Below are positions 7,647 to 25,979 of a DNA stretch of 26,777 nt, piece by piece (the first letter of the stretch is position 1; the number at the start of each line of letters is the position of its first letter). A program made the position numbers and the translations under genes. Below the pieces are notes generated by a model. The model saw only the letters and a program-made list of their open reading frames with translations, was not told the DNA's origin and did no database searches. This DNA comes from a virus. The stretch spans positions 1 through 26,777 of IMG/VR virus record IMGVR_UViG_3300002835_000915, one strand, 5' to 3'.

Positions 7647-8099
7647 ATGGCTCAAGGAAAGACATATGGGATAAGTTTTCCATTCATGGAAAGTATCGAA
7701 GGTAAATATTTGGAACTTACAGAATTTGCTGCTGAAGAAATTAGAGCAAATCTTATTCATCTTTTATTGACAAGAAAAGGTAGTAGATATTTTCTCCCAA
7801 ATTTTGGAACAAATTTGTATCAATTTATATTTCAACCTATGGATGGTCCTACTTTTCAGGACATTGAATCTGAAATAAGAGATTCAGTTGAAACTTTTAT
7901 GCCAGAATTACAAATTACAGATATAAATATCTCACCTGCGAACAATGATCCTATAAGTACAACAACATTAAATACACAAAATAATGAATTTACTGTTGTA
8001 AACCATAATGTAACTGATTATACTGCTAAAGTTAGAATTGATTATGTTGTTTCTAATGATGTTTTTAATCCTAAAGATTTTATAATTATAAACATATAA
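7647..8099 (+). CDS. Baseplate wedge protein, T4 gp25 / P2 W-like
   Basis: Small lysozyme-like wedge protein that initiates sheath assembly on contractile baseplates; 150 residues (T4 gp25 is about 132). The family signature is clear: EIRANLIHLLLTRKGSRYF (31-49), then the PNFGTNLYQFIF segment (51-62) and a D-rich helix FQDIESEIRDSVETF (70-84), followed by a beta-rich tail. The family keeps the lysozyme-like fold but is structural, not lytic. The start ATG at 7647 has no Shine-Dalgarno sequence, and an 8-bp hairpin ends 12 bases upstream, so its translation might be sensitive to that structure. Its stop shares one base with the ATG of the gp6/J-like gene, which is the same W-J order as in P2. 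Confidence 0.93.
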   Translation: MAQGKTYGISFPFMESIEGKYLELTEFAAEEIRANLIHLLLTRKGSRYFLPNFGTNLYQFIFQPMDGPTFQDIESEIRDSVETFMPELQITDINISPANNDPISTTTLNTQNNEFTVVNHNVTDYTAKVRIDYVVSNDVFNPKDFIIINI

Positions 8100-9940
8100 T
8101 GTCACAAAAAAAAATATCTTATACTGTTAGAGATTTTGCAGCAATCAGACAAGAACTCGTTAATTACACTAAAACTTATTATCCTGAATTAATTGATAAC
8201 TTCAATGACGCTGCGGTATTTTCGGTTTTTTTAGATTTAAATGCAGCAATTTCGGATAATTTACACTACAATATAGATAGAAGTATTCAAGAAACTGTAT
8301 TACAATTTGCACAACAAAGATCTTCAGTTTACAATATTGCTCGAACTTATGGGTTAAAAATCCCAGGTCAAAGACCCTCTGTAGCACTAGTGGATTTTTC
8401 CATTGTTGTTCCAGCTTTTGGGGATAAAGAAGATGAGAGGTATTTAGGAACAATAAGATCTGGAGCTCAAGTTATAGGGGCTGGCCAAGTATTTGAAACA
8501 ATTTCAGATGTTAATTTTGCATCACCATTTAATTCTGACGGTTACCCAAACAGACTTAAGATACCAAACTTTGACGGAAATGGAATATTGATAAATTATA
8601 CAATTACAAAAAGAGAAACCGTAGTAAATGGAATTACAAAAGTTTATAAAAGAACAATATTACCAAATGATGTTGTTCCCTTTTTTAATTTTTTTTTACC
8701 AGAAAAAAACGTTTTAGGAGTCACCTCGATCATTCAAAAACAAGGAACTGCGTATTCTAATGTTCCTTCGGCACAAGAATTTTTAGGAACTCAGGGAAGA
8801 TGGTATGAAGTTTACGCCTTAGCAGAAAGTAGAATTTTTGTTGAAGATCCATCTAAACCAAGTAATGATCCATCAATAAAAGTAGGTAGGTATATTGAAA
8901 CTCAACAAAGATTTATGACAGAGTACACTCCAGAAGGTTTTTTTAAAATAACTTTTGGTGGAGGTACAAATACGGCAGATGATCAATTGAGAGAATTTAC
9001 TTCGTTAGGGATTCCGATGAATGTACAAAAGTATCAAAATAATACATTTTCTTTAGGGTCGATTCCGCAATCCAATTCTACAATTTTTGTTCAATATAGA
9101 ATTGGTGGTGGTATAGGAACTAATATAGGGGTTAATGTAATTAATCAAATCGGTGTTATTGATTTTTTTGTAAATGGACCATCAGAAACAATTAATACTC
9201 AAGTTGTTAATTCATTAACTTGTATTAATCCTACTGCCGCAATAGGTGGTGCTGGATATCCCACTACAGAAGAAGTGAGACAATATGTTACGTTTAACTT
9301 TGCTGCTCAAAAAAGAGCCGTTACAATTAACGATTATGAGGCAATCATTAGAAATATGCCGTCATTATTTGGTGCTCCGGCTAAAGTAAGTATTACTGAA
9401 AATAACAATAAAATAAATGTTAATGTTTTATCATATGATGCTGACGGTAAACTAATTACCGAGATATCACAAACATTAAAAAATAATATTGCTGAATATC
9501 TTTCTAACTATCGAATGATAAACGATTATATTTCGGTTGGTGCGGCACAAGTAATTGATTTAGCTATTGATATAGCGGTTGTTTTAGATGGAACTCAGAA
9601 CCAAGGAATTGTAATTAGTGATATAATTGATAGAGTTACAACATTTTTCAGTCCTGGAGTTTTGAATTTAGGACAAAATGTTTCAATATCTGAATTAAAT
9701 AGAATAATACAATCCGAAAATGGTGTTTTGGGTGTCAATAGTATCGATGTTTATGGTAAGGTAGGCGGGCAATATTCTTCAGATCAGACCTCAATGAGTT
9801 ATGACAATGAATCTACCAAAAGGATAAAGCTAATAGATAATACATTATTTGCTGAACCAAACCAAATATATCAAATTAGATTTCCAAATAGAGACATCAC
9901 GGTCAGAACTAAAAATTATCAAACCACCATATTTTCTTAA
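8099..9940 (+). CDS. Baseplate wedge protein, T4 gp6 / P2 J-like (baseplate J family)
   Basis: Wedge ring protein of the contractile baseplate, 613 residues (T4 gp6 is about 660). The N-terminus YTVRDFAAIRQELVNYTKTY (about 6-25) and a helical DLNAAISDNLHYNIDRSIQE segment match the long-gp6 start that clamps neighbouring wedges. The baseplate J hallmark is GGAGYPTTEEVRQYV followed by QKRAVTINDYEAIIR (about 384-420), where the family usually has a RAVT..DYE core. A beta-rich C-terminal domain follows. It overlaps the gp25-like stop by one base (TAATG type), so the two are probably made in matched amounts. A 146-base gap rich in hairpins separates it from the giant gene downstream. Confidence 0.9.
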   Translation: MSQKKISYTVRDFAAIRQELVNYTKTYYPELIDNFNDAAVFSVFLDLNAAISDNLHYNIDRSIQETVLQFAQQRSSVYNIARTYGLKIPGQRPSVALVDFSIVVPAFGDKEDERYLGTIRSGAQVIGAGQVFETISDVNFASPFNSDGYPNRLKIPNFDGNGILINYTITKRETVVNGITKVYKRTILPNDVVPFFNFFLPEKNVLGVTSIIQKQGTAYSNVPSAQEFLGTQGRWYEVYALAESRIFVEDPSKPSNDPSIKVGRYIETQQRFMTEYTPEGFFKITFGGGTNTADDQLREFTSLGIPMNVQKYQNNTFSLGSIPQSNSTIFVQYRIGGGIGTNIGVNVINQIGVIDFFVNGPSETINTQVVNSLTCINPTAAIGGAGYPTTEEVRQYVTFNFAAQKRAVTINDYEAIIRNMPSLFGAPAKVSITENNNKINVNVLSYDADGKLITEISQTLKNNIAEYLSNYRMINDYISVGAAQVIDLAIDIAVVLDGTQNQGIVISDIIDRVTTFFSPGVLNLGQNVSISELNRIIQSENGVLGVNSIDVYGKVGGQYSSDQTSMSYDNESTKRIKLIDNTLFAEPNQIYQIRFPNRDITVRTKNYQTTIFS

Positions 9941-10051: not shown

Positions 10052-10086
10052 TTGATGAAGTAAAAAGTAATTTAAAAAATTTGAAT

Positions 10087-13000
10087 ATGTCAAAAAGTTT
10101 TAGAATTAGAACACAAGTAGGTGTAGATAGACAAGTGAATTTTGATTTGAAACAAGATTTTGATCAATTAGAAATTCTATCAATAAAACTTAGACAACAA
10201 GACATTTATCCAAAATCATGTGCCGATTTTGGAGTTATAGTAGGACGAGTATTCGTAAATAATGGTTTTGGATTACCAAATGTAAAAGTAAGTGTTTTTA
10301 TACCACTTGATAATGTCGATTCACAAAATTTATTAACATCATCTGTTTATCCTTATACTGATTTATCAGTATCTAATGACGATGGTTATCGATATAATTT
10401 ACTACCTTACGAAAAACAACATTCGGGTCATGTCCCAACTGGAACATTTGTGTCCAAAAATGATATTCTTCAAAACCCATTACTTGGTGAAGTATATGAC
10501 AAATATTATAAATTCACAGTAAAAACCAATGAAAGCGGTGACTATATGATTATGGGAGTTCCGCCTGGTAATCATACCGTGGTTATGGATTGTGATCTTT
10601 CGGATATAGGAGAATTTTCTCAATCACCACAAGATATTATCGATATGGGTTTGGGAACATCTGAGCAAATTACAGGAGCCACTTTTTCAAGTAGTAGTGA
10701 TTTATCGACTCTTCCTCAGATAGTATTCCAATCCGCAACAGTTGAGGTTAATCCCTTTTGGGGCCAAGAAAATGTTTGTAGATCTTCAATAGCTCGAAAA
10801 GATTTTAATCTAACCGAATCAGGTGTAAAAATTACACCATCGGCAGTTTTTATGGGTTCTATTTTTACAAATCCAAATGATTATTCGTTAAAAAAGTCAT
10901 GTAGACCTGCAAAAAAAATTGGTGAACTATGTACATTACAGACAGGTCCTGGAGAGATTATAGGTGTTAGACAAACAATTTTTAATGACGAAAATGGATA
11001 TCCATTATTAGAAACTGCAAATTTACCTAAAAAAGGGAAAGTTATTGATTCAAATGGGGTATATGTGTTTAATGTTCCTATGAACATGGATTACGTTACC
11101 ACCGATGAAAATGGTCAACAAGTTTTAAGTTTAAATCCTGAAGTAGGAATACCTACAACTGGAAAATATCGTTTTAAGATAAAATATTCACAACCAAGTT
11201 CTTTCGAAAAACGTGAAGTCAGAAGAGCATACTATTTGGTACCTAATGTAAAAGAATATGGTTGGGTAAATTCAGAATCAGACCCATCTGACATTGTAAA
11301 TACAAATGATAATAACTATAAAAAATTTCAAAGTTCTTACTATTTTGGTTTAGATTGGAGTGGATATACAAACGGTTTTTTATTAGGTACAGAATTAAAT
11401 AACCGAATGATGGAAATGATTAATTGTGAGGATGTTTTTTATCAATTAAGATATAAAAAAGTGTACACCACAGCATCAATTATCGATAATTTCAAAAAAG
11501 GTTTGAGTAGACAAAGATTTTTGTCCATAAAAGATATAACAAACGAAGAATGTGAAAGTACAATTAACAGATTCCCAACCACGGACGCTTTTTATAAATT
11601 TGATTGGTTGTTTTTTATAGTGAATTTATTCATGATTATATTAGGAATTGTAATGTATGTTTTGGTTATAGTTTTACATGCTCTATGGGTTATATTACAA
11701 ATAGTGAAAGTAATATCTGTTGCTATTTGGTTTTTATGGTGGACTCTTTACCTTGTTTGTAAATTAGTAACATTTGGATTTGGAAATTGTGGTGGTGAAC
11801 CACCTAGTTTAAACGAATGGTGGGACGCATTTCCAACCATTTCAAAAATAACTTTACCAGTATTACCATATCCAGATTGTGAAGCCTGTGATTGTTCAAT
11901 GGACTCACAAGTAGGAGTTACTGGAGAAGGTTTAGATAGTTTTAGTTGTAATGCAGACTTTTTTTCACCTCAATTTTGGAGTTCAACAGGAGACGATGAT
12001 TCTGAAGTAGATAAGGAAACCTGGATGTTTGCAGGTTGGGGGTATGACCCTCAAACTCCACGTGGTTATGAATACCTAAAACGTGTACCGATAGTTCATA
12101 GGTATTATGACAGAGATGGGGGTCAATTAACAAGTAGAAATAGATATCAATATTTTATAACAGAACTACCCGTTTGGGAAAATATAAATAAGTTTGCTTT
12201 AAAAGATAAATATTTTAATCCATCATCGACTGATAGGTTACAAGGAAGTAATAGAATACGAGTGGCATTTAATCCACAATCAAACTTAAATAAATATCAT
12301 TTTGATAACGTTATAGCACTTATAGTAGATACTAATTGTTTGGAAAATATGAATGCTGGAGATTTGTTTACATTTGTAGACCCTTCCAAAACTTTTGATT
12401 TAAATGTATCTTCATCAACTTCAGGTAATGTTTCGACCTATAAAACAATTACTGTAACATATGCAGATCCTAACGGAATAAACAATCAAAATTTAACTCA
12501 AACTTATAATATTGGTGTACCACCATCAGGGTCAAATTTACCATATACTGCCAAGACCTACAATTTTGCTTCAGACTTAGAGTATTACCAAGTAATAACT
12601 GGTATGACATTAGATAATTTTAAATCAGTAGCTAATTTATTAAAACCAAATCAAACCCCTCAAAATCAACAATGGTCTTTGGTGAACAGTTTATATCCTA
12701 GGCGATATAGAATTAATCAACAGGATTGGAGGTCATTTACAGTGTTAGCTTTTGCACCTCAAGGACGTACAGTAGATTTTGATGAATGTCTTAGTCAAAC
12801 TTATTTAGAATATTTTAATACGGAATCAACATCAATAATGTTTTTAATACGTGGAGTAGATCCATGGAGTGGAAAACATGAAGTCACTTATGATTTATCA
12901 CGAATATTTGGTTTTGATACATGGGGTCATAACAACAATCAATTTGTTTACAAATCAAAATATTACCTTAATGTCCCAATACAATCAGGTAGTATTTGTT

Positions 13001-15096
13001 CAAGACAAGATTTACTTACTTCTAATGTCACAACTCAAAATAATAACCCAAATATCTATTTTGAATCTTATTTATTTTCAGCGAGTACATCGGTAAGTGC
13101 GTACACCACAACAAATCATTTATATTATTCATCTCTAGATGGACTTCAAATTAACAATACATTTAGACCACCGTCTTCACCCCAAACATTAAATTCTTCG
13201 TGGTCAGTAACTAATAGTAGTAGTGGTTTAAGAGTAAACAGATCAGGTAGTAATGGAGTTCCTAATATTGGACCTCTAAATAACTACTCATCCAATGAAT
13301 ACATTGAAGGTGGTTCATATATTTTATATGAGGAGGATAATGATGGAGATGGTCCTTTACTTGAACCTATAGGAAATTATGATGATGATGAATGCGGAAT
13401 TGATAATAATTTTATAAGACCTGTTCGATATGTTGGTCCAACATACATAGCTGGAAATTATTCTTCTGGGCAAAATTTTCCAAATAAACCGACAATACAA
13501 ATACAAAGAACTAAATTAGTATTGAGGTCAGATAGACTACCTACAGGTAGTGATTTAGATCAAATTTGTGATAGAAATGGAAATTGTAATACATTTTGTT
13601 TACAAGCATCTAATACATTGACCTATTATGTGCTAGGCGAGACTGGTACTTCTGTTAAAGAAGTGAGTACATTTAATACAGGGTTTGGTGATGGGAGGGG
13701 GGATGATTACGTTTCAGGAAATTCTCAAGTGGATTTGATTTTACAATCAACAACATGTTCGGGTATGAGAAGTTTAGATTGCTACCAATACAATCCGCCA
13801 ACAATAAATGTCTTACCAGCAACAAATGATTGTAACACAAATGTTACAAATAATCAGGTAATGAAAGGTGGGTGTTATGTTTTATTGAATCCTCCAATTT
13901 TGAGTATGTTCGGTCGTAATAACGACTTTCAATTGGTCTCTGACTGGAAATTGAGATTTAGAATGAATTTTGCATTATGTAGAGGTGTTATAGGTCAGAC
14001 CTTTAAAAATGCTTGGATTAACGGTACATTGTTTGCATATCCTTTTAGTACCAATGTATTTTTTGATAGAAACAACAAACCATTTGTGAGGTTCATAAAT
14101 ACATTTGGTAACGTTAAATATACATTCTGTCCTAGTCAAATTGTATATGAAAATAATTCAAACAATTTTTACTATAGGTCATCACCATATAATACCACCA
14201 ACGGCTTTATCGGAGCTAAATACGATCATCTTTTTCAGATGAACGACAAATATCTTAAAAATCCTACAACAATAGTGGATTTAGGACCACAATATTTTTG
14301 GACAAGAGAGGTTTATTTTTCAGACGAATATTTTGGTTATCAAGTAGATAGGTTGGATGGCACTTCATTTAATCCATTGGAAGACATTACACTCATATTT
14401 TCATTATCAAGAGTAGTTAATGCAAGTAGAACTTTTAATGGAGGAATAGTCAAATCTCTTTTTTCAAGAAATGGTGGGACATTATTTAATGATTGTGCTG
14501 TAGATGGGGATTATGCACAAATGATACAAATTAATAGTAAGTACTCTATATTTCCATTTGGTCTTGAAAATTATGACGACCCAACAAATAATGCGGCTTA
14601 CTTTGGATTAGATTCGAATGGGGATTCTTTTTTTGGTTTATTTCTGACAGGAGATACTTCGTCTCAGGATTTAATTTCACCTAAAAGATTAAATTTTCAA
14701 ACGACAGGAACAGTTACTAATTTTTTAAATCGTTCCTATAAATTACCAGTTAAAACTCAAAAGACCCCAAATTATAGATGGAATATTACTAATTTCAGTA
14801 ATACAATTTTTGGTAATCAAGATAATAATTGGCAAACCAACAATTTTACAACCATGGAACATCAAAGAATGGATAGATTGTTTACTCCATTTTTCCAAGG
14901 TCAAAATCTAAATGTTCAATATTCTCAAGGACACATTTTTAATGTTGGTAACAATGGACTTAATTTACCGATTAAACCATCAGGTTCAAATAATACGAGT
15001 ATTATTAATACAGGTCCTTGGTATTTTTATTTTGGAGTTGTGATTGGAGAAACCGCAATAGATAAATTTAGAGAATTATACGTACCAGAAATATAA
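10087..15096 (+). CDS. Giant baseplate/tail protein with Ig-like N-terminus and central membrane-helix block
   Basis: 1669 residues, the largest gene here. Its place after the gp6-like gene is that of T4 gp7, a wedge protein of about 1030 residues, but I see no sequence match. The N-terminus has transthyretin/carboxypeptidase-regulatory-like pieces: GRVFVNNGFGLPNVKVSVF (about 52-70), NESGDYMIMGVPPGNHTVV (about 148-167) and a second set around 317-345. Residues about 504-568 are almost purely hydrophobic, from FDWLFFIVNLFMIILGIVMY to LWWTLYLVCKLVTFGFG, enough for two or three membrane helices. A Cys-rich patch follows (NCGG, then CEACDC near 600). The remaining 1000 residues are Asn/Ser/Tyr-rich and beta-like. 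There is no signal peptide. I chose ATG 10087 over TTG 10081 because MSKSFRIR is a natural start. A role in the virion and at the host membrane is inferred, not shown. Confidence 0.85.
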   Translation: MSKSFRIRTQVGVDRQVNFDLKQDFDQLEILSIKLRQQDIYPKSCADFGVIVGRVFVNNGFGLPNVKVSVFIPLDNVDSQNLLTSSVYPYTDLSVSNDDGYRYNLLPYEKQHSGHVPTGTFVSKNDILQNPLLGEVYDKYYKFTVKTNESGDYMIMGVPPGNHTVVMDCDLSDIGEFSQSPQDIIDMGLGTSEQITGATFSSSSDLSTLPQIVFQSATVEVNPFWGQENVCRSSIARKDFNLTESGVKITPSAVFMGSIFTNPNDYSLKKSCRPAKKIGELCTLQTGPGEIIGVRQTIFNDENGYPLLETANLPKKGKVIDSNGVYVFNVPMNMDYVTTDENGQQVLSLNPEVGIPTTGKYRFKIKYSQPSSFEKREVRRAYYLVPNVKEYGWVNSESDPSDIVNTNDNNYKKFQSSYYFGLDWSGYTNGFLLGTELNNRMMEMINCEDVFYQLRYKKVYTTASIIDNFKKGLSRQRFLSIKDITNEECESTINRFPTTDAFYKFDWLFFIVNLFMIILGIVMYVLVIVLHALWVILQIVKVISVAIWFLWWTLYLVCKLVTFGFGNCGGEPPSLNEWWDAFPTISKITLPVLPYPDCEACDCSMDSQVGVTGEGLDSFSCNADFFSPQFWSSTGDDDSEVDKETWMFAGWGYDPQTPRGYEYLKRVPIVHRYYDRDGGQLTSRNRYQYFITELPVWENINKFALKDKYFNPSSTDRLQGSNRIRVAFNPQSNLNKYHFDNVIALIVDTNCLENMNAGDLFTFVDPSKTFDLNVSSSTSGNVSTYKTITVTYADPNGINNQNLTQTYNIGVPPSGSNLPYTAKTYNFASDLEYYQVITGMTLDNFKSVANLLKPNQTPQNQQWSLVNSLYPRRYRINQQDWRSFTVLAFAPQGRTVDFDECLSQTYLEYFNTESTSIMFLIRGVDPWSGKHEVTYDLSRIFGFDTWGHNNNQFVYKSKYYLNVPIQSGSICSRQDLLTSNVTTQNNNPNIYFESYLFSASTSVSAYTTTNHLYYSSLDGLQINNTFRPPSSPQTLNSSWSVTNSSSGLRVNRSGSNGVPNIGPLNNYSSNEYIEGGSYILYEEDNDGDGPLLEPIGNYDDDECGIDNNFIRPVRYVGPTYIAGNYSSGQNFPNKPTIQIQRTKLVLRSDRLPTGSDLDQICDRNGNCNTFCLQASNTLTYYVLGETGTSVKEVSTFNTGFGDGRGDDYVSGNSQVDLILQSTTCSGMRSLDCYQYNPPTINVLPATNDCNTNVTNNQVMKGGCYVLLNPPILSMFGRNNDFQLVSDWKLRFRMNFALCRGVIGQTFKNAWINGTLFAYPFSTNVFFDRNNKPFVRFINTFGNVKYTFCPSQIVYENNSNNFYYRSSPYNTTNGFIGAKYDHLFQMNDKYLKNPTTIVDLGPQYFWTREVYFSDEYFGYQVDRLDGTSFNPLEDITLIFSLSRVVNASRTFNGGIVKSLFSRNGGTLFNDCAVDGDYAQMIQINSKYSIFPFGLENYDDPTNNAAYFGLDSNGDSFFGLFLTGDTSSQDLISPKRLNFQTTGTVTNFLNRSYKLPVKTQKTPNYRWNITNFSNTIFGNQDNNWQTNNFTTMEHQRMDRLFTPFFQGQNLNVQYSQGHIFNVGNNGLNLPIKPSGSNNTSIINTGPWYFYFGVVIGETAIDKFRELYVPEI

Positions 15097-15097
15097 G

Positions 15098-16822
15098 ATG
15101 AGTAATTCTGAATTAATAATTGTTAAACCAAACTTATTGAGTGCTGCCGCGCCCAAAACAGACATTTATTTGAATACTGAATTGGTACAAACTCAATCTG
15201 AAATAATAGAGTTTGATAAAACAACAAACATAAGTTTGTTAAATGTGTTTGATAATGAGCGACAAAAATCAACCATTTTCAGACCAATTACCAAAATATC
15301 TTATGTATATGACAATAATATTCAAGGGTTTTGTCCACCTAATAACACATGGTTTAATTATAATAACAATTTATTTTACACTGATCCAGAAACGTCAATT
15401 AACTCTCTTGTTTGGACAGGTCTTCCATCTTACCAAGAATTTGAGTTTATAAGAACTGACGTTTCGAACCCACAATTAAATTTTACACAATTTGGTAACT
15501 TTTCAACAAAAAGTGCAACGTCTTATAATTGGAACGTTAGCATATCATATCCTTTTGAAAATATTACAGGTTTTACAATGTCTTGTAACTTTGGAGGGGG
15601 ACGTATTATACAATGGAAAAATTCAGATGGAATACCCTTTATTATTTCTCAAGGTACGGACAATGGATTACCAATAATACAATTTGTATGTCCAGTTCCT
15701 CATAATTTAAAAGTCGGAGAATATGTTGAACTATCGACAGCATTTACATATAACAGTATTAATACTTTCCAAGTTTCTAGTTTGGGTAATAATACTTATG
15801 ACTCCGAAAAGTATATTTTTAATATGGAAAATGTTGGATTTTTGGGAGTGACATTTAATTCAGGAAGAATGGGAACTTTCAAAAGAATTACAAACATATT
15901 TAATTCAGGTGAAACCAAATCCAAGTATTATATTAGAAATCATAAAATTATTACATCAACTTCTGATATGATTTTGACCAAAAATGGATTTGAAAAAAAT
16001 TCATTTTCAGATAGATCAGTATACCAATTATCCGCTCTTACCCCAAATGGGGTTTCTAACGTAATTAAATTTCAGAGTTCAAATACCTATAATTTAACTT
16101 TTGAAAGAGATATTGATATAAACGGGTTACTCGATAATAATGGAAAACCAATTACACAACTTTTTGTCAGTTTTCAGTGGTGTGGTTATTTTGGGTGGCA
16201 CGATAAATTGAGAAGAGGTTGGGGGTTTAATATGCAAACAGGGTCAACCAACAATTGGTTCGATACTACAAATATAGAATCTGAGGAATTACTAACACAT
16301 TTAACTTATACTAGACAAAGTGGGGGGACTTTTAATTTTCTAATCAACAAACCAAAAGAAACTGATGAGACATTTTATGGAGATTTTTGTGAATACAATG
16401 ATATAGAACAAACTGAATATGTTATTTCAAATTACATACATAAAATGACATATAATCAAAGATTATTTACGACAGATACTACCACCAATCAGAGTAATCC
16501 AAAAGGATATTATTATCAGGTACATTATCCTATAACTATTAAAGTTTTTTCAGACTATGTTGAATCAACTTCTAGTTTTAATCTAACAGAGTTACCAAAT
16601 TATGCATTCTATTCACGTAATCAAAATTTATGGTTATGGAGAGATATCTATACATATGGGTTTTTTAATGAATTAGGTCAAGGAGTTGACTATCCTTTTT
16701 TGAATGAAGCACATTATCCTTTTACAAATATAATTTTTAAATTGTATGGTCAAGGATCTTCATTTAATATCCTAGATTATTACCAAATAACGATTGAACC
16801 AATTTCAGACCCCTGTGAATAG
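15098..16822 (+). CDS. Structural (baseplate/tail) protein, unknown family
   Basis: 574 residues, starting two bases after the stop of the giant gene, so probably co-translated. The sequence is Asn/Thr/Tyr/Phe-rich with many short beta-like strands and almost no Lys/Arg clusters, as usual for virion beta-sandwich proteins. No signal peptide, membrane segment or catalytic motif is seen. The middle (PVPHNLKVGEYVELSTAF, about 198-215) looks like part of a beta-barrel or Ig-like unit. In T4 order the next wedge gene would be gp8, but I cannot support that from sequence. Its end overlaps the next gene. It is a virion part by context only. Confidence 0.8.
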   Translation: MSNSELIIVKPNLLSAAAPKTDIYLNTELVQTQSEIIEFDKTTNISLLNVFDNERQKSTIFRPITKISYVYDNNIQGFCPPNNTWFNYNNNLFYTDPETSINSLVWTGLPSYQEFEFIRTDVSNPQLNFTQFGNFSTKSATSYNWNVSISYPFENITGFTMSCNFGGGRIIQWKNSDGIPFIISQGTDNGLPIIQFVCPVPHNLKVGEYVELSTAFTYNSINTFQVSSLGNNTYDSEKYIFNMENVGFLGVTFNSGRMGTFKRITNIFNSGETKSKYYIRNHKIITSTSDMILTKNGFEKNSFSDRSVYQLSALTPNGVSNVIKFQSSNTYNLTFERDIDINGLLDNNGKPITQLFVSFQWCGYFGWHDKLRRGWGFNMQTGSTNNWFDTTNIESEELLTHLTYTRQSGGTFNFLINKPKETDETFYGDFCEYNDIEQTEYVISNYIHKMTYNQRLFTTDTTTNQSNPKGYYYQVHYPITIKVFSDYVESTSSFNLTELPNYAFYSRNQNLWLWRDIYTYGFFNELGQGVDYPFLNEAHYPFTNIIFKLYGQGSSFNILDYYQITIEPISDPCE

Positions 16823-20286: not shown

Positions 20287-23200
20287 ATGGCTAAACAATT
20301 TTTTCGGACTAATGGAGCTTCAGGTGCTGACACACCCTTTGATAATATTGTCGGATTACAGACAGTACGAGGGGGTGGACTCACACAAGGAAATTTTGAA
20401 TTTGAAGTTGCGGTATCTGAAAAAAATAATAGAAATTTTTTTTTAGGTGTTTTTGGTGATCCAATATCATTAGATGATTTAGACGTTGATTCAGTAAATC
20501 AATCTAGACTTATACAATCAAGAGAATTTAGAGTATTTCCAAATATTGATTTATCTTTAGTAACAAATTTTACATTGTATGGATCATTACAAAAAAGAAT
20601 TGAAGTATCTATACAGAAGATTTTAAATTTTTTTCCAGCAGGGTTACAGGTTAATTATTATAATCTAGATTTATCAACAGGTTATACCGCTTATGATATA
20701 ACATATGATTCTGAATTTGATCTTACAAATCTTAAAATTGAGGTAAATAAAATTCAAAATCCGTTTTCGATAGATTTTACATATAATTCTAAAATTAATT
20801 TACAAACTCGTGAATTTGAATTTTCACCTTTAAGAGATTTAACAAATCGGTATACTGATTATATCCTATTAGTAGATGAAAAACAATTTCCAATAATTCA
20901 ATTTTTCCCATCAAATAGTTTATTTTCAGGATCAATCGGAATGGTCGTAAAAGGAAATCCTTTTGGCCCTATAGTAAATGTAACTAGTATTAAAAATTTA
21001 CTCATAAGACCTACAGATCTAATTAGTGAAAAAGTTTTTTCAGAAGAATTCAATTTAGTTGAGGGATTTTTATTGAATAGGTATTCTAACCCGATATACA
21101 CCGCAACTTTTGCTGTACCAATAGAAGGGAACGACGGTGTAGCTTCCATTCAAAGTCAAAATTTAACATTTCCATTAGATGGTGATTGGAATTTAGATAT
21201 TAGAAGTGCAAATTTCGAAGATTATTTGATTAAATTAAACAATATTTGTGAAAATTTTGATATTTTTAAAACTAATTTGGTAACTAGATTTTTGACAACA
21301 AATTCGTTCATAGATTTTGACACTCCAGATCAAAAAGTTTACAAAGTATTACAAATATACGGTAGAAGTTACGATCAACTTAAATTATACATTAATGCTT
21401 TGTCAACTATGACAAATGTAATGTATCAAAATGGAAATACAATTCCTGACGAACTTATTAAATATTTGGCACAAACTATAGGGTATGGCACAAATATATC
21501 ACCAGTACTTTTTCAAAATTTCATAAATTCAACCTTTTCTGTTTCTGGTAAATCGCAATTTGAAGGGTATTCTGTACAATTTACCGATGATGAAATTAAT
21601 TTTCAATTTTATAGAAATTTAATTTTAAATGCTGCTTATCTATTCAAATCAAAGGGTACTAGAAAAGCGGTCGAATTTATTATGAGATTTGTTGGAATTC
21701 CTGAAGCAATGATGGAATTTAATGAATACGTTTATCTTGCGGATCAAAGAATTGATATGAATCAGTTCAATAAAGAATACGAAGAATTATCAAGTGGTAA
21801 TTTTGTCGATATTATCACTACTTTAGATAGTGGAAACACATATAATATTTTAGGTACTCAATACACAGCATTTACATCATCAACAATTGTTGAGACTGCT
21901 ACATTAAGTTTTGAAGACTATCCTGTAGATAAATTTGGATTCCCAAAAGCCCCGAGAGAAACGAATGATTATTTTTTTCAAAAAGGTGCTGGGTGGTTTG
22001 AGTCGACACCACAACACAGGAGTCCTGATGAAGTAAATCCAACTTTTTCTGTTTTTACAGGGTCAAGTCCAAATGTTCAAACAAATCTTTTACCATTTAC
22101 TTATGGACAAGAGTATTTTGAAAGATTCAAGAATTTCCCGTATATGAATTTGGGTTATAACTTAAAATTAAGTATCGACAATAAAAAATCTTGGCAACCA
22201 CCAATTATAAGAAGTAGTACTGAATCAGGATTTAATGCATATTATGTTGTTCAGTCAGATAAATTTGTAATTAACACTAAAAATACCGAAATATTTATTA
22301 ACCCTAGTCAAGCATTGTTGTATGATGTTTGGTATATCTCGAGAAATTTTAATTATCCAATTCCGAATTCTGGACTCACACCATCATATCCAAGTTTGAA
22401 TAGTTATAATTGGAGTTTTATTAATCCTCAAGCTAACAAAAAAAACTTTTTCGATTTCCAATTAGATTTTATAAGATCTACAATAAATGTTAGAGATCGA
22501 TGGTTTGAAAGTGATGGAAAAACAAGTGGATATTCCACTCTTTTATCTATTTATTTTAACTTTCTTTATTCACAACAAAATGCAAACGTAACAAATTATG
22601 GGTTCAAATATTCAAATTTAATAGAGTATGCACAAGGATTTGGGCCTAGTTGGGTAAGATTAGTGGAACAATTTGTGCCTGCAAGTACAATTTGGAACAC
22701 TGGGGTCAGGTATGAAAATTCTGTTATGAATAGACAAAAATACAAATGGAAAAAACAAATTCCGTGTAGTATTGCCTATTCTTCGTCAACAATCAATCCA
22801 AATCCGACAAATCCTGTACAACCGACACCAACAGTTACTAATACTCAAACGTCGACCCCAGTCCCAACATTACCAACACCAACAGTTACTAATACTAATA
22901 CACAAACACCAACGAATTTTAATATAATATGTAGTATCAATAACATATCTGGGTGTGTAAATCAAGAGGTTGAAGTACCAGTATATTTAAATACCATTGG
23001 TACTACTTCAATTAGTGCAATTTCTTTGGCGATTGATTTTGATAATACAAAATTATCTGCGACTACAAATCCATCTGTTACCTCCCTCGCACCTACTTTT
23101 GCGGGAATGATCACCAATGTTGCATTTTTCTCTGGATTACAACCAAACCCTCCATTCAATTCTACAACACGAAAACAATTCAGAGCAGGATGGTCTCGAA

Positions 23201-23379
23201 TTAACCCAGTTCAGTACACTGGGGTGATCTTCAAAATTAGATTTAAAATTTTGATTGCAGGAACACACAGTGTGAAATTTGACCTAACAACCCTAGGAAA
23301 TTGTGAATTTGCAGATGAATTTACAAATGTAATAAACGGAGTACAATTTATCGATGGACAAGTACAATCAAATTGTTAA
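20287..23379 (+). CDS. Tail protein I-like baseplate protein fused to a Thr/Pro linker and cohesin-like domain
   Basis: 1030 residues in three parts. The N-terminal part (about 1-330) is beta-rich and unidentified. Around 330-485 is a helical region like P2 tail protein I: LQIYGRSYDQLKLYINALS, then PDELIKYLAQTIGYG, then AAYLFKSKGTRKAVEFIMRF, where the kGT-helix pattern is the family hallmark. This protein class links the J-like wedge to fibres. A Thr/Pro/Asn linker (about 835-877) leads to a C-terminal domain (about 878-1030) that looks like cohesin: VNQEVEVPVYL, SAISLAIDFDNTKLSA, then FKIRFKILIAGTHSVKF. The coding DNA of this last domain is less AT-rich than the rest. The I-like and cohesin-like calls are from memory of the families and need a profile search. 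Confidence 0.82.
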   Translation: MAKQFFRTNGASGADTPFDNIVGLQTVRGGGLTQGNFEFEVAVSEKNNRNFFLGVFGDPISLDDLDVDSVNQSRLIQSREFRVFPNIDLSLVTNFTLYGSLQKRIEVSIQKILNFFPAGLQVNYYNLDLSTGYTAYDITYDSEFDLTNLKIEVNKIQNPFSIDFTYNSKINLQTREFEFSPLRDLTNRYTDYILLVDEKQFPIIQFFPSNSLFSGSIGMVVKGNPFGPIVNVTSIKNLLIRPTDLISEKVFSEEFNLVEGFLLNRYSNPIYTATFAVPIEGNDGVASIQSQNLTFPLDGDWNLDIRSANFEDYLIKLNNICENFDIFKTNLVTRFLTTNSFIDFDTPDQKVYKVLQIYGRSYDQLKLYINALSTMTNVMYQNGNTIPDELIKYLAQTIGYGTNISPVLFQNFINSTFSVSGKSQFEGYSVQFTDDEINFQFYRNLILNAAYLFKSKGTRKAVEFIMRFVGIPEAMMEFNEYVYLADQRIDMNQFNKEYEELSSGNFVDIITTLDSGNTYNILGTQYTAFTSSTIVETATLSFEDYPVDKFGFPKAPRETNDYFFQKGAGWFESTPQHRSPDEVNPTFSVFTGSSPNVQTNLLPFTYGQEYFERFKNFPYMNLGYNLKLSIDNKKSWQPPIIRSSTESGFNAYYVVQSDKFVINTKNTEIFINPSQALLYDVWYISRNFNYPIPNSGLTPSYPSLNSYNWSFINPQANKKNFFDFQLDFIRSTINVRDRWFESDGKTSGYSTLLSIYFNFLYSQQNANVTNYGFKYSNLIEYAQGFGPSWVRLVEQFVPASTIWNTGVRYENSVMNRQKYKWKKQIPCSIAYSSSTINPNPTNPVQPTPTVTNTQTSTPVPTLPTPTVTNTNTQTPTNFNIICSINNISGCVNQEVEVPVYLNTIGTTSISAISLAIDFDNTKLSATTNPSVTSLAPTFAGMITNVAFFSGLQPNPPFNSTTRKQFRAGWSRINPVQYTGVIFKIRFKILIAGTHSVKFDLTTLGNCEFADEFTNVINGVQFIDGQVQSNC
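22825..22896 (+). repeat. Two exact 21-base direct repeats in the linker DNA
   Basis: Copies at 22825-22845 and 22876-22896, 51 bases apart, each reading ACACCAACAGTTACTAATAC plus T. Both encode TPTVTNT in frame. The spacing is 17 codons, so gain or loss of a unit would keep the frame and change linker length. Confidence 0.85.
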
Positions 23380-23894: not shown

Positions 23895-25979
23895 ATGCCA
23901 ATATCGGTTTCATACGTTGCAACAGGTAGTTGTTTTAACTATTCAACAGGAAGTGTACAAATTGTTGTAACTGGAGGTACACCTCCATATTTTTATACAT
24001 GGACTAACCCAACAGGGTTTACTGGTTCGTTTCTGACGGGATTAGCACCAGGGAATTACAGTTTAATAGTTAACGATAGTCAAGCACCAACTAACAATAC
24101 TGCTATTTTAGGGATTTCAGTTTCTAGTGGAATGTGTTTGAGTTTGGACTCTGTAACCAATACTTCATGTGGATTTAATAATGGTAGAATTGTTGTTGAG
24201 GCCGAATCTGATAATTATGAAATTACGTATAATTTACTGAATGATCAAGATTTGTTAATCGAGTCGCAATTTATAAATGGTGGTTACGCTACTTTTACAA
24301 ATTTAAGCGCTGGTACATATTACGTAGAGTCATCTAATATGGCTGGATGTACAGCTAAAACTGAATCTATAATTGTTGGATCAGGTAAAACGTTAGAATT
24401 TGGATTTTATGTGGTAAACGATACACAATGTGATCCCAACCCAACAGGTAAATTATTTATTACTGGTTTAACTGGTGAAGGTCCATTTAATATCCAGTGG
24501 TCAAATAGTCAAACAGGTACTACTATCACTGGTCTTACTGCAGGTTTGTATAGTTGTACTATTACTTCAAGTGATTTTTGTGAGTTAAATAAAAATGTTT
24601 TAGTAGAATACCAACCAGAATTAGGATTAAATTATTGGAGTGCAATTACCCCAACATGCTTGAGTAGTGATGGTCAACTTACTCTTGTTATAACAGGAGG
24701 TACAGGACCATACTATTATTCAGCATCTAATGGATCTATTCAAATAAGTTATGCACAAATACAAACTTATACTGGGTTAACTACAGGACCATTTTCAGTT
24801 TTGGTCACCGATGCAACATTCTGTAAACAAACATTTTCAACTACGTTACAAATTGAAAATAGTATTAATTATGTTGATGTATCAACTATAAATTCAATAT
24901 GTAGTGTTTCTGGTGGTTCGATAAATGTTTTAGTTTATGGAGGAACTGCACCATATACTTACACTATTTCATCATCAACTTTTAATCAACAGATTACCAC
25001 AAATAGTAGTACAAATGAATTTACAAATTTATTTGCAGGTCTATATGAAGTATCGGTTTCAAACATTGGAAGTTGTTTTTTTTCAAAACAAGTTCAAATA
25101 TTTACAGAACAAAAGTTTGTTAGTTTTACATCGGTAACTGGAGCTACTTGTGGTATTAATAATGGAAAAGTTGAAATTTCGATAACATCTGGAGGAACTC
25201 CACCATACGTTTATTCCATTAGTAATGGATTTTCAACTCAAAATAACGACAATAGAGTTATTTTTGAAGGAATGGCTTTTGGTCTTTATCAATATCAAGT
25301 TGTTGATAGTGAGGGGTGTTCTCAAAGTGGTATTATAAACATCACAAACACTCCTGCGGTTAATTTTGAATTATATCCTGTATCATGTATAAATGGAAAT
25401 AATGGTTCAATAACTGTTTTATTGAGTAGTGGAATACCTCCATTTACCTTTTTTTGGTCTGACAATGTACCTGGAAACCCACAAGAAGTATATGTGACAG
25501 GTTTAACAAAAGGAATTTATACCTTGAATATTACAGATGCTAATAATTGTTCTTTTTCTGCAGAAACTATTATAGATTGTATTGAGGTTTTTTCAGGATA
25601 CAAAGTATACACCATGACAGATAAAGAATTTTTAAGTATTTCAGCATCAAAAATTGGGATGATTGAAATGGTTAATAAAGGATATCAAAATTTAATAAAT
25701 AGTTATAGTGGGTGTGTATTGAGTGCAACAACTTTTACCGTAGAAACAAACTTGAATGGAAATTTATTTACAAATCAATTTTATACAGGTTATACATTGA
25801 CTGATGTTCCAAATGACGAACAATGGTATTCTATAATAAGAGCGATGACAATTCCTTTTGTAAATACAGTGACAATAAATTCAGATAATTCTTCTATCAT
25901 TTTAAATCAAGATACAAACAATATCAATCGAACTTTTAAAATTGATTTAATCATCGATTATGTAATTTTTTGTCTTTGA
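23895..25979 (+). CDS. Tail fibre with seven SprB-like Ig repeats and a C-terminal anchor module
   Basis: 694 residues, mostly about seven tandem repeats of 70-90 residues resembling the SprB repeat of Bacteroidota gliding adhesins: a Cys-x-x-x-x-G start, a GGTPPYxYxW strand, then GLxxGxYxxxVxDxxxC. Examples are VTGGTPPYFYTWTNPTG, ITGGTGPYYYSASNG, VYGGTAPYTYTIS, ITSGGTPPYVYSIS and SGIPPFTFFWSDN, with LSAGTYYVESSNMAGC and LTKGIYTLNITDANNC as closing strands. After about residue 566 comes a different module shared with the upstream 166-residue protein. There is no signal peptide, unlike secreted host SprB, so it is a virion protein rather than a host adhesin. It is likely the receptor-binding fibre or its shaft. 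Repeat family and role are inferred from sequence style and context. Confidence 0.85.
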   Translation: MPISVSYVATGSCFNYSTGSVQIVVTGGTPPYFYTWTNPTGFTGSFLTGLAPGNYSLIVNDSQAPTNNTAILGISVSSGMCLSLDSVTNTSCGFNNGRIVVEAESDNYEITYNLLNDQDLLIESQFINGGYATFTNLSAGTYYVESSNMAGCTAKTESIIVGSGKTLEFGFYVVNDTQCDPNPTGKLFITGLTGEGPFNIQWSNSQTGTTITGLTAGLYSCTITSSDFCELNKNVLVEYQPELGLNYWSAITPTCLSSDGQLTLVITGGTGPYYYSASNGSIQISYAQIQTYTGLTTGPFSVLVTDATFCKQTFSTTLQIENSINYVDVSTINSICSVSGGSINVLVYGGTAPYTYTISSSTFNQQITTNSSTNEFTNLFAGLYEVSVSNIGSCFFSKQVQIFTEQKFVSFTSVTGATCGINNGKVEISITSGGTPPYVYSISNGFSTQNNDNRVIFEGMAFGLYQYQVVDSEGCSQSGIINITNTPAVNFELYPVSCINGNNGSITVLLSSGIPPFTFFWSDNVPGNPQEVYVTGLTKGIYTLNITDANNCSFSAETIIDCIEVFSGYKVYTMTDKEFLSISASKIGMIEMVNKGYQNLINSYSGCVLSATTFTVETNLNGNLFTNQFYTGYTLTDVPNDEQWYSIIRAMTIPFVNTVTINSDNSSIILNQDTNNINRTFKIDLIIDYVIFCL

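Follow-up and report, generated by a model that had tools for sequence, protein, structure and literature searches.

To our knowledge, little is understood of how contractile phages move their DNA through the inner membrane once the outer layers have been pierced by the tube, and for phages of Bacteroidota this step is almost unstudied. The Anabaena thylakoid contractile injection system (tCIS) is anchored by a membrane helix of its Cis13 protein (PMC8894136), whilst the type VI secretion system (T6SS) of Bacteroidota uses a separate membrane complex, TssNQOPR (PMC10781749). In the tape measure protein (TMP) of TP901-1, the first hydrophobic region is required for infection (PMC5099701). Moraphages, large aquatic phages reported in 2025 with predicted Bacteroidota hosts, have no recognised tape measure protein (PMC12619734).

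Here we analyse a window of 26,777 nucleotides (the whole stretch of IMG/VR virus record IMGVR_UViG_3300002835_000915 under study) that encodes a very large protein, hereafter X. Like Cis13, X would be a contractile-baseplate protein with a helix that contacts a lipid bilayer, and like the TP901-1 TMP, a virion protein, it carries hydrophobic segments. Cis13 is tail-fibre-like, with a C-terminal helix that sits in the producer's own membrane, whereas X belongs to phages, ranges from 1100 to 2800 aa across its family and carries an internal hydrophobic block. X also differs from TMPs in being beta-rich, in having no long repeat helix and in being encoded after gp6, and a separate tape-measure candidate is present. 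Moraphages resemble the window's phage in their aquatic origin, in their predicted Bacteroidota hosts and in tail genes of T4 type, among them gp25, gp6 and the sheath; X and its block go unmentioned in the passages of their description that we consulted (PMC12619734).

Results

Gene neighbourhood of protein X

X is encoded by an open frame on the plus strand that runs from an ATG at 10087 to 15096 and yields 1669 aa, with a TTG at 10081 as an alternative start. The genes around it, on the same strand, belong to a baseplate module. A gp25-like baseplate wedge protein is encoded at 7647-8099 (Pfam GPW_gp25 E 7.8e-13; PHROG wedge E 1.9e-15) and, as the immediate 5' neighbour of X, a gp6 or Baseplate_J wedge protein at 8099-9940 (PHROG E 1.8e-19; Pfam E 1.6e-5). 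Directly downstream is a 574-aa partner gene recognised from conserved gene order (15098-16822), and a 1030-aa Tail_P2_I-like protein is encoded at 20287-23379. The baseplate-region location proposed for the block protein in an earlier note on this DNA was thus borne out, the gp25 and gp6 neighbours being real. The order gp25, gp6, X and then products of 574, 295, 548, 302, 1030 and 694 aa was kept, within the reach of each contig, in the 80 closest IMG/VR loci. Among 164 more distant loci, gp6 preceded X in 157, and five of eight long X-bearing contigs contained a contractile sheath gene. In two close relatives (L005 and L007), dnaB was found upstream of the baseplate genes, and neither nrdA nor nrdB was detected in the interval. 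Searches for RNA families and tRNAs found none within the window.

X directly follows gp6, the position held by gp7, and the earlier note took it for a wedge protein at that position. This identification did not hold. The X profile showed no similarity to T4 gp7 (probability 0.3%), and X had no match in Flavobacterium phage immuto, Microcystis phage Mel-JY01 or LR756508. The large proteins encoded after gp6 in these three were matched by the profile of the 1030-aa protein (E 1e-8 to 5e-4; for Mel-JY01, hmmsearch E 1e-8 and hhalign E 6e-7) and have a KGT motif in common with it, in addition to the weak Tail_P2_I match of the window protein. The 1030-aa protein did not match T4 gp7 directly, and its gp7 label therefore comes only from position and shared relatives. 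With the 1030-aa product as the post-gp6 counterpart and X matchless, X is an additional protein encoded between gp6 and that counterpart. On the strength of the profile comparison and of this counterpart we rejected X as a gp7 homologue, and T4 gp10 was rejected as a homologue because no match was found. In the window the 1030-aa protein carries a C-terminal cohesin-like domain (Pfam E 5e-6) that is absent from the 22 other members scanned.

According to the earlier note, no such hydrophobic element is known for T4 gp7. This picture is incomplete: the GenBank entry annotates the C-terminus of gp7 with a predicted integral membrane domain, and our scan found a borderline segment at 879-900. 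T4 gp7 and X are therefore alike in following gp6 and in the membrane domain predicted for gp7. They are unlike in that the gp7 segment is C-terminal and weak, and in having no sequence or profile similarity to one another.

The hydrophobic block of X

The block comprises 62 residues at 11602-11787 (DWLFFIVNLFMIILGIVMYVLVIVLHALWVILQIVKVISVAIWFLWWTLYLVCKLVTFGFGN). It confirms the hydrophobic stretch of about 60 residues that the earlier note had placed at 11596-11790 in the 1669-residue protein, and its hydropathy is far above that of shuffled sequence: the Kyte-Doolittle mean over 60 residues is 2.11, whereas 2000 shuffled versions of X reached no more than 1.33. The block contains only two Lys and one each of Asp, His and Gln.

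Membrane insertion was scanned on a hand-coded version of the biological scale; glycophorin A (-1.45) and M13 coat (-0.95), run as positive controls, scored as expected. Two segments were predicted in the block, at residues 507-531 (about 11599-11673; insertion energy -3.2) and 534-558 (about 11680-11754; -1.3), counting the TTG as residue 1. They are separated by His533 on the same count, which is near-invariant in the window's clade. The scan detected no further membrane segment in the rest of X, and the sole segment in the other 16 window proteins was a weak one (+0.6) in the small ribonucleotide reductase subunit. As a yardstick, 21 of 23 T4 structural proteins scored above +2.4, with gp7 (+0.15) and the tape measure protein gp29 (+0.31) borderline; none reached the values of the X block. 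Measured against two relatives (L002 and L003), dN/dS of the block was 0.09-0.13. The block is under purifying selection, and because this ratio is similar to that of the remainder of X, it is a genuine coding segment.

Distribution and shared features of the X family

Relatives of X were found at 80 close IMG/VR loci, at 160 more distant loci and on four GTDB MAG contigs. The distant loci came from scans with two divergent relatives, and many lie on rumen-type contigs of up to 412 kb; one scan of IMG/VR gave at least 596 confirmed X-matching stretches. The family consists of the window's clade (the 80 close loci) and two further clades, for one of which the label 'rumen' was inferred from a few named relatives. 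No tblastn match was found in cultured phages for the X, L090 or L091 proteins, no PHROG, Pfam or NCBIfam family matched X above the cut-off, and solved structures gave no sequence match to it. The X family is large, uncharacterised and found solely in uncultured phages. In one relative (L018:3052-7877) X is divided into two overlapping frames, which reflects a frameshift or else a misassembled contig.

The clades share four marks. The beta-rich N-terminal domain (10087-11265 in X) has a pairwise identity of 0.66 in the window's clade, and its profiles match between the window and rumen clades with E 6e-109 over 490 columns, running into the block. It includes a weak carboxypeptidase-regulatory-like stretch at about 10513-10587 (Pfam CarboxypepD_reg E 9e-4, below the cut-off). 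An N-x-x-P-x-N-type motif precedes the block; in alignments of the window's clade it reads N-x-F-P-x-N/T-D and lies immediately 5' of the block (11566-11586, NRFPTTD in X), in the rumen clade it is NPxPYN or NPVPFN, and a looser form occurred in 218 of 235 long family members. The W-x-N-G motif (14008-14025, NAWING) is kept in rumen members and in L090, a relative that has no block. Near the C-terminus, the YFYFG...G.TAIDKF motif (15019-15069) is common to the rumen clade and present in looser form in L090. Directly 3' of the block, X also has a Cys cluster, C-x2-C-x-C (11878-11895, within YPDCEACDC), whose first two Cys are invariant in the window's clade and which is possibly a metal site.

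Conservation of the block

None of the peptide patterns with which relatives were sought came from the block, so its presence in those relatives is not a circular result. A strongly hydrophobic segment was found in region 400-750 in 133 of 136 non-redundant members. Predicted segments outside this region occurred in only three of the 136. The number of segments per member was one in 84, two in 31 and three in eight; the other 13 had none below the energy cut-off, and include the three true absences, L090, L093 and L096. This variation from one to three argues against a single fixed transmembrane topology and for a hairpin, a re-entrant element or a loose membrane anchor. The flank charges of the block showed no clear positive-inside pattern.

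In the window's clade the block is among the least sequence-conserved parts of X. Its two halves have pairwise identities there of 0.31 and 0.18, against 0.66 for the N-terminal domain. Its composition in the same clade is 85% nonpolar and about 6% charged, compared with 61-64% nonpolar and 14-22% charged in the main domains (61% and 22% in the N-terminal domain). Across the family its length varies between about 24 and about 100 residues. Several rumen members have a shorter segment that contains Lys or Arg. The helical moment is low for so hydrophobic a segment, with no polar face. Lipid-facing segments hold their hydrophobicity while sequence and length drift, unlike a specific packing core. 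The combination of low identity and high hydrophobicity in the window's clade therefore points to selection on hydrophobicity and not on specific packing.

The three members that have no block form long, deep and weakly placed branches of the tree. L090 retains an FPFN motif with nothing hydrophobic behind it. No replacement membrane protein was found beside X in L090 or L096, and in L093 an unrelated lipoprotein-like gene lies beside X on the opposite strand. As the block is missing from three members, two of them with no replacement next door, it is not strictly essential.

Structure prediction

The AlphaFold model of window residues 3-1180 was of moderate quality (pLDDT 64). In it the block forms one continuous helix of 59 residues (about 11605-11781; pLDDT mostly 73-80) between poorly predicted flanks. 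A short relative with a deep alignment (L212) gave a better model (pLDDT 77, pTM 0.81), in which a strand is followed by a helix of 30 residues (pLDDT about 82-89), about the thickness of a membrane, and then by a linker of some 70 residues that is disordered. The predicted helix has the length and the nonpolar character needed to cross a bilayer. Outside the block X is mainly beta-strand in both models, and the beta regions that the earlier note had described on either side of the block were found as beta-rich flanks. Foldseek returned weak matches to pilin, adhesin and carbohydrate-binding beta-sandwich folds. It also gave a clear match over part of X to A0A8S5LA66 of Myoviridae sp. ctPuP5 (E 4e-27; 41% sequence match), a metagenome-derived protein that is itself uncharacterised and unannotated.

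Other membrane and tape-measure candidates

Strong predicted membrane segments were confined, among the large proteins encoded in the virion-gene regions of two X-bearing contigs (95 and 109 kb), to X. Weak hits again fell on the small subunit of ribonucleotide reductase, and in the 109-kb contig (G001) proteins of 544 and 321 aa, encoded outside the baseplate region, had N-terminal segments. A helix-rich protein of about 650 aa whose gene adjoins a hub gene is the best tape-measure candidate, assigned by position and composition only; no membrane segment was predicted in it. X itself was rejected as a tape measure protein, being mainly beta-strand outside the block and not long and mostly helical. 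Two further large products were noted in relatives: a 1693-aa tail-module protein with a weak OmpA match (L256:809-5887; E 0.005, below the cut-off), and a 1761-aa frame of very low helix-former content that looks repetitive and has an overlapping alternative frame of 436 aa (G002:3918-9200, L254).

Host

The 694-aa protein encoded at 23895-25979 contains five SprB repeats (Pfam E 9e-34), and SprB repeats also occur in a relative in G002. The SprB repeat is a gliding-adhesin repeat of Bacteroidota. Distant X relatives lie on MAG contigs that carry the labels Paludibacteraceae and Bacteroidota, with Wolfebacteria and Mycoplasmatota as other labels. Together, the MAG labels and the SprB repeats make Bacteroidota the likely host of the window phage.

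Discussion

Our preferred reading, to which we give a probability of roughly 0.4, is that X associates with the baseplate and has a helix or hairpin that interacts with a membrane, most likely for host entry. Hydrophobicity is kept in about 130 diverged relatives, and this pattern of sequence change suggests that the block touches a membrane. Because the tape-measure candidate has no membrane segment, X may supply the membrane function, and the position of X in the baseplate module, taken with the lack of an obvious tape-measure membrane segment, makes host entry the leading use. We infer that X is present in the virion, that it contacts a membrane and that it does so at entry. X would be an extra baseplate-associated protein of contractile-tailed phages whose hosts are probably Bacteroidota. 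It would hold an internal helical element between its conserved N-terminal beta domain and its variable C-terminal beta domains, and the form of this element would differ by member: a single helix in some, a hairpin or three segments in others. The element would most likely be shielded in the free virion and become exposed when the baseplate rearranges. Once exposed, it could anchor to a host membrane, or help to breach it, during DNA delivery.

The block may instead be a buried hydrophobic core or an oligomerisation helix, with copies of X bundling inside the baseplate and never meeting lipid. Virion proteins are normally soluble, the baseplate protein gp7 of T4 has a borderline hydrophobic segment of its own, and the modelled 59-residue helix exceeds the thickness of a membrane and would suit a long bundle. 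A packing core should, however, keep its sequence, its length and a heptad or polar pattern; the block is poorly conserved in sequence, varies in length and has a low moment, and three members have no block at all. We consider this alternative rather unlikely.

Segments like the X block would be recognised by the host insertion machinery during synthesis, which would favour a role in the infected, producing cell. Anchored there in the membrane, X would serve as a platform for tail assembly and act before release and not at entry. Membrane-anchored contractile systems are known, both in Cis13 of the tCIS (PMC8894136) and in TssNQOPR of the Bacteroidota T6SS (PMC10781749). For an assembly factor, though, X is of very great size, and its variable beta parts resemble adhesin or pilin-type surface domains, so that such a platform seems improbable to us. 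The same weak resemblance to beta-sandwich, pilin and adhesin folds, and the long variable C-terminal extensions of the rumen clade, would fit a protein that is mainly a receptor-binding or peripheral baseplate adhesin, its block being a hinge or greasy patch with no membrane role. That would leave the retention of hydrophobicity over such divergence unexplained, and we judge it very unlikely.

A more far-reaching and decidedly speculative possibility concerns this whole uncultured group of contractile phages, jumbo phages among them and Bacteroidota their probable hosts. In the group, the membrane-active function in DNA delivery would no longer belong to the tape measure; it would have passed to a baseplate protein of very large size dedicated to it, whose own membrane helix or hairpin would be released on contraction. 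The X family is widespread, with at least 596 matching stretches in IMG/VR, and carries no functional annotation. Its conserved membrane-type block, together with the members that naturally have no block, offers a specific protein and a specific segment for study.
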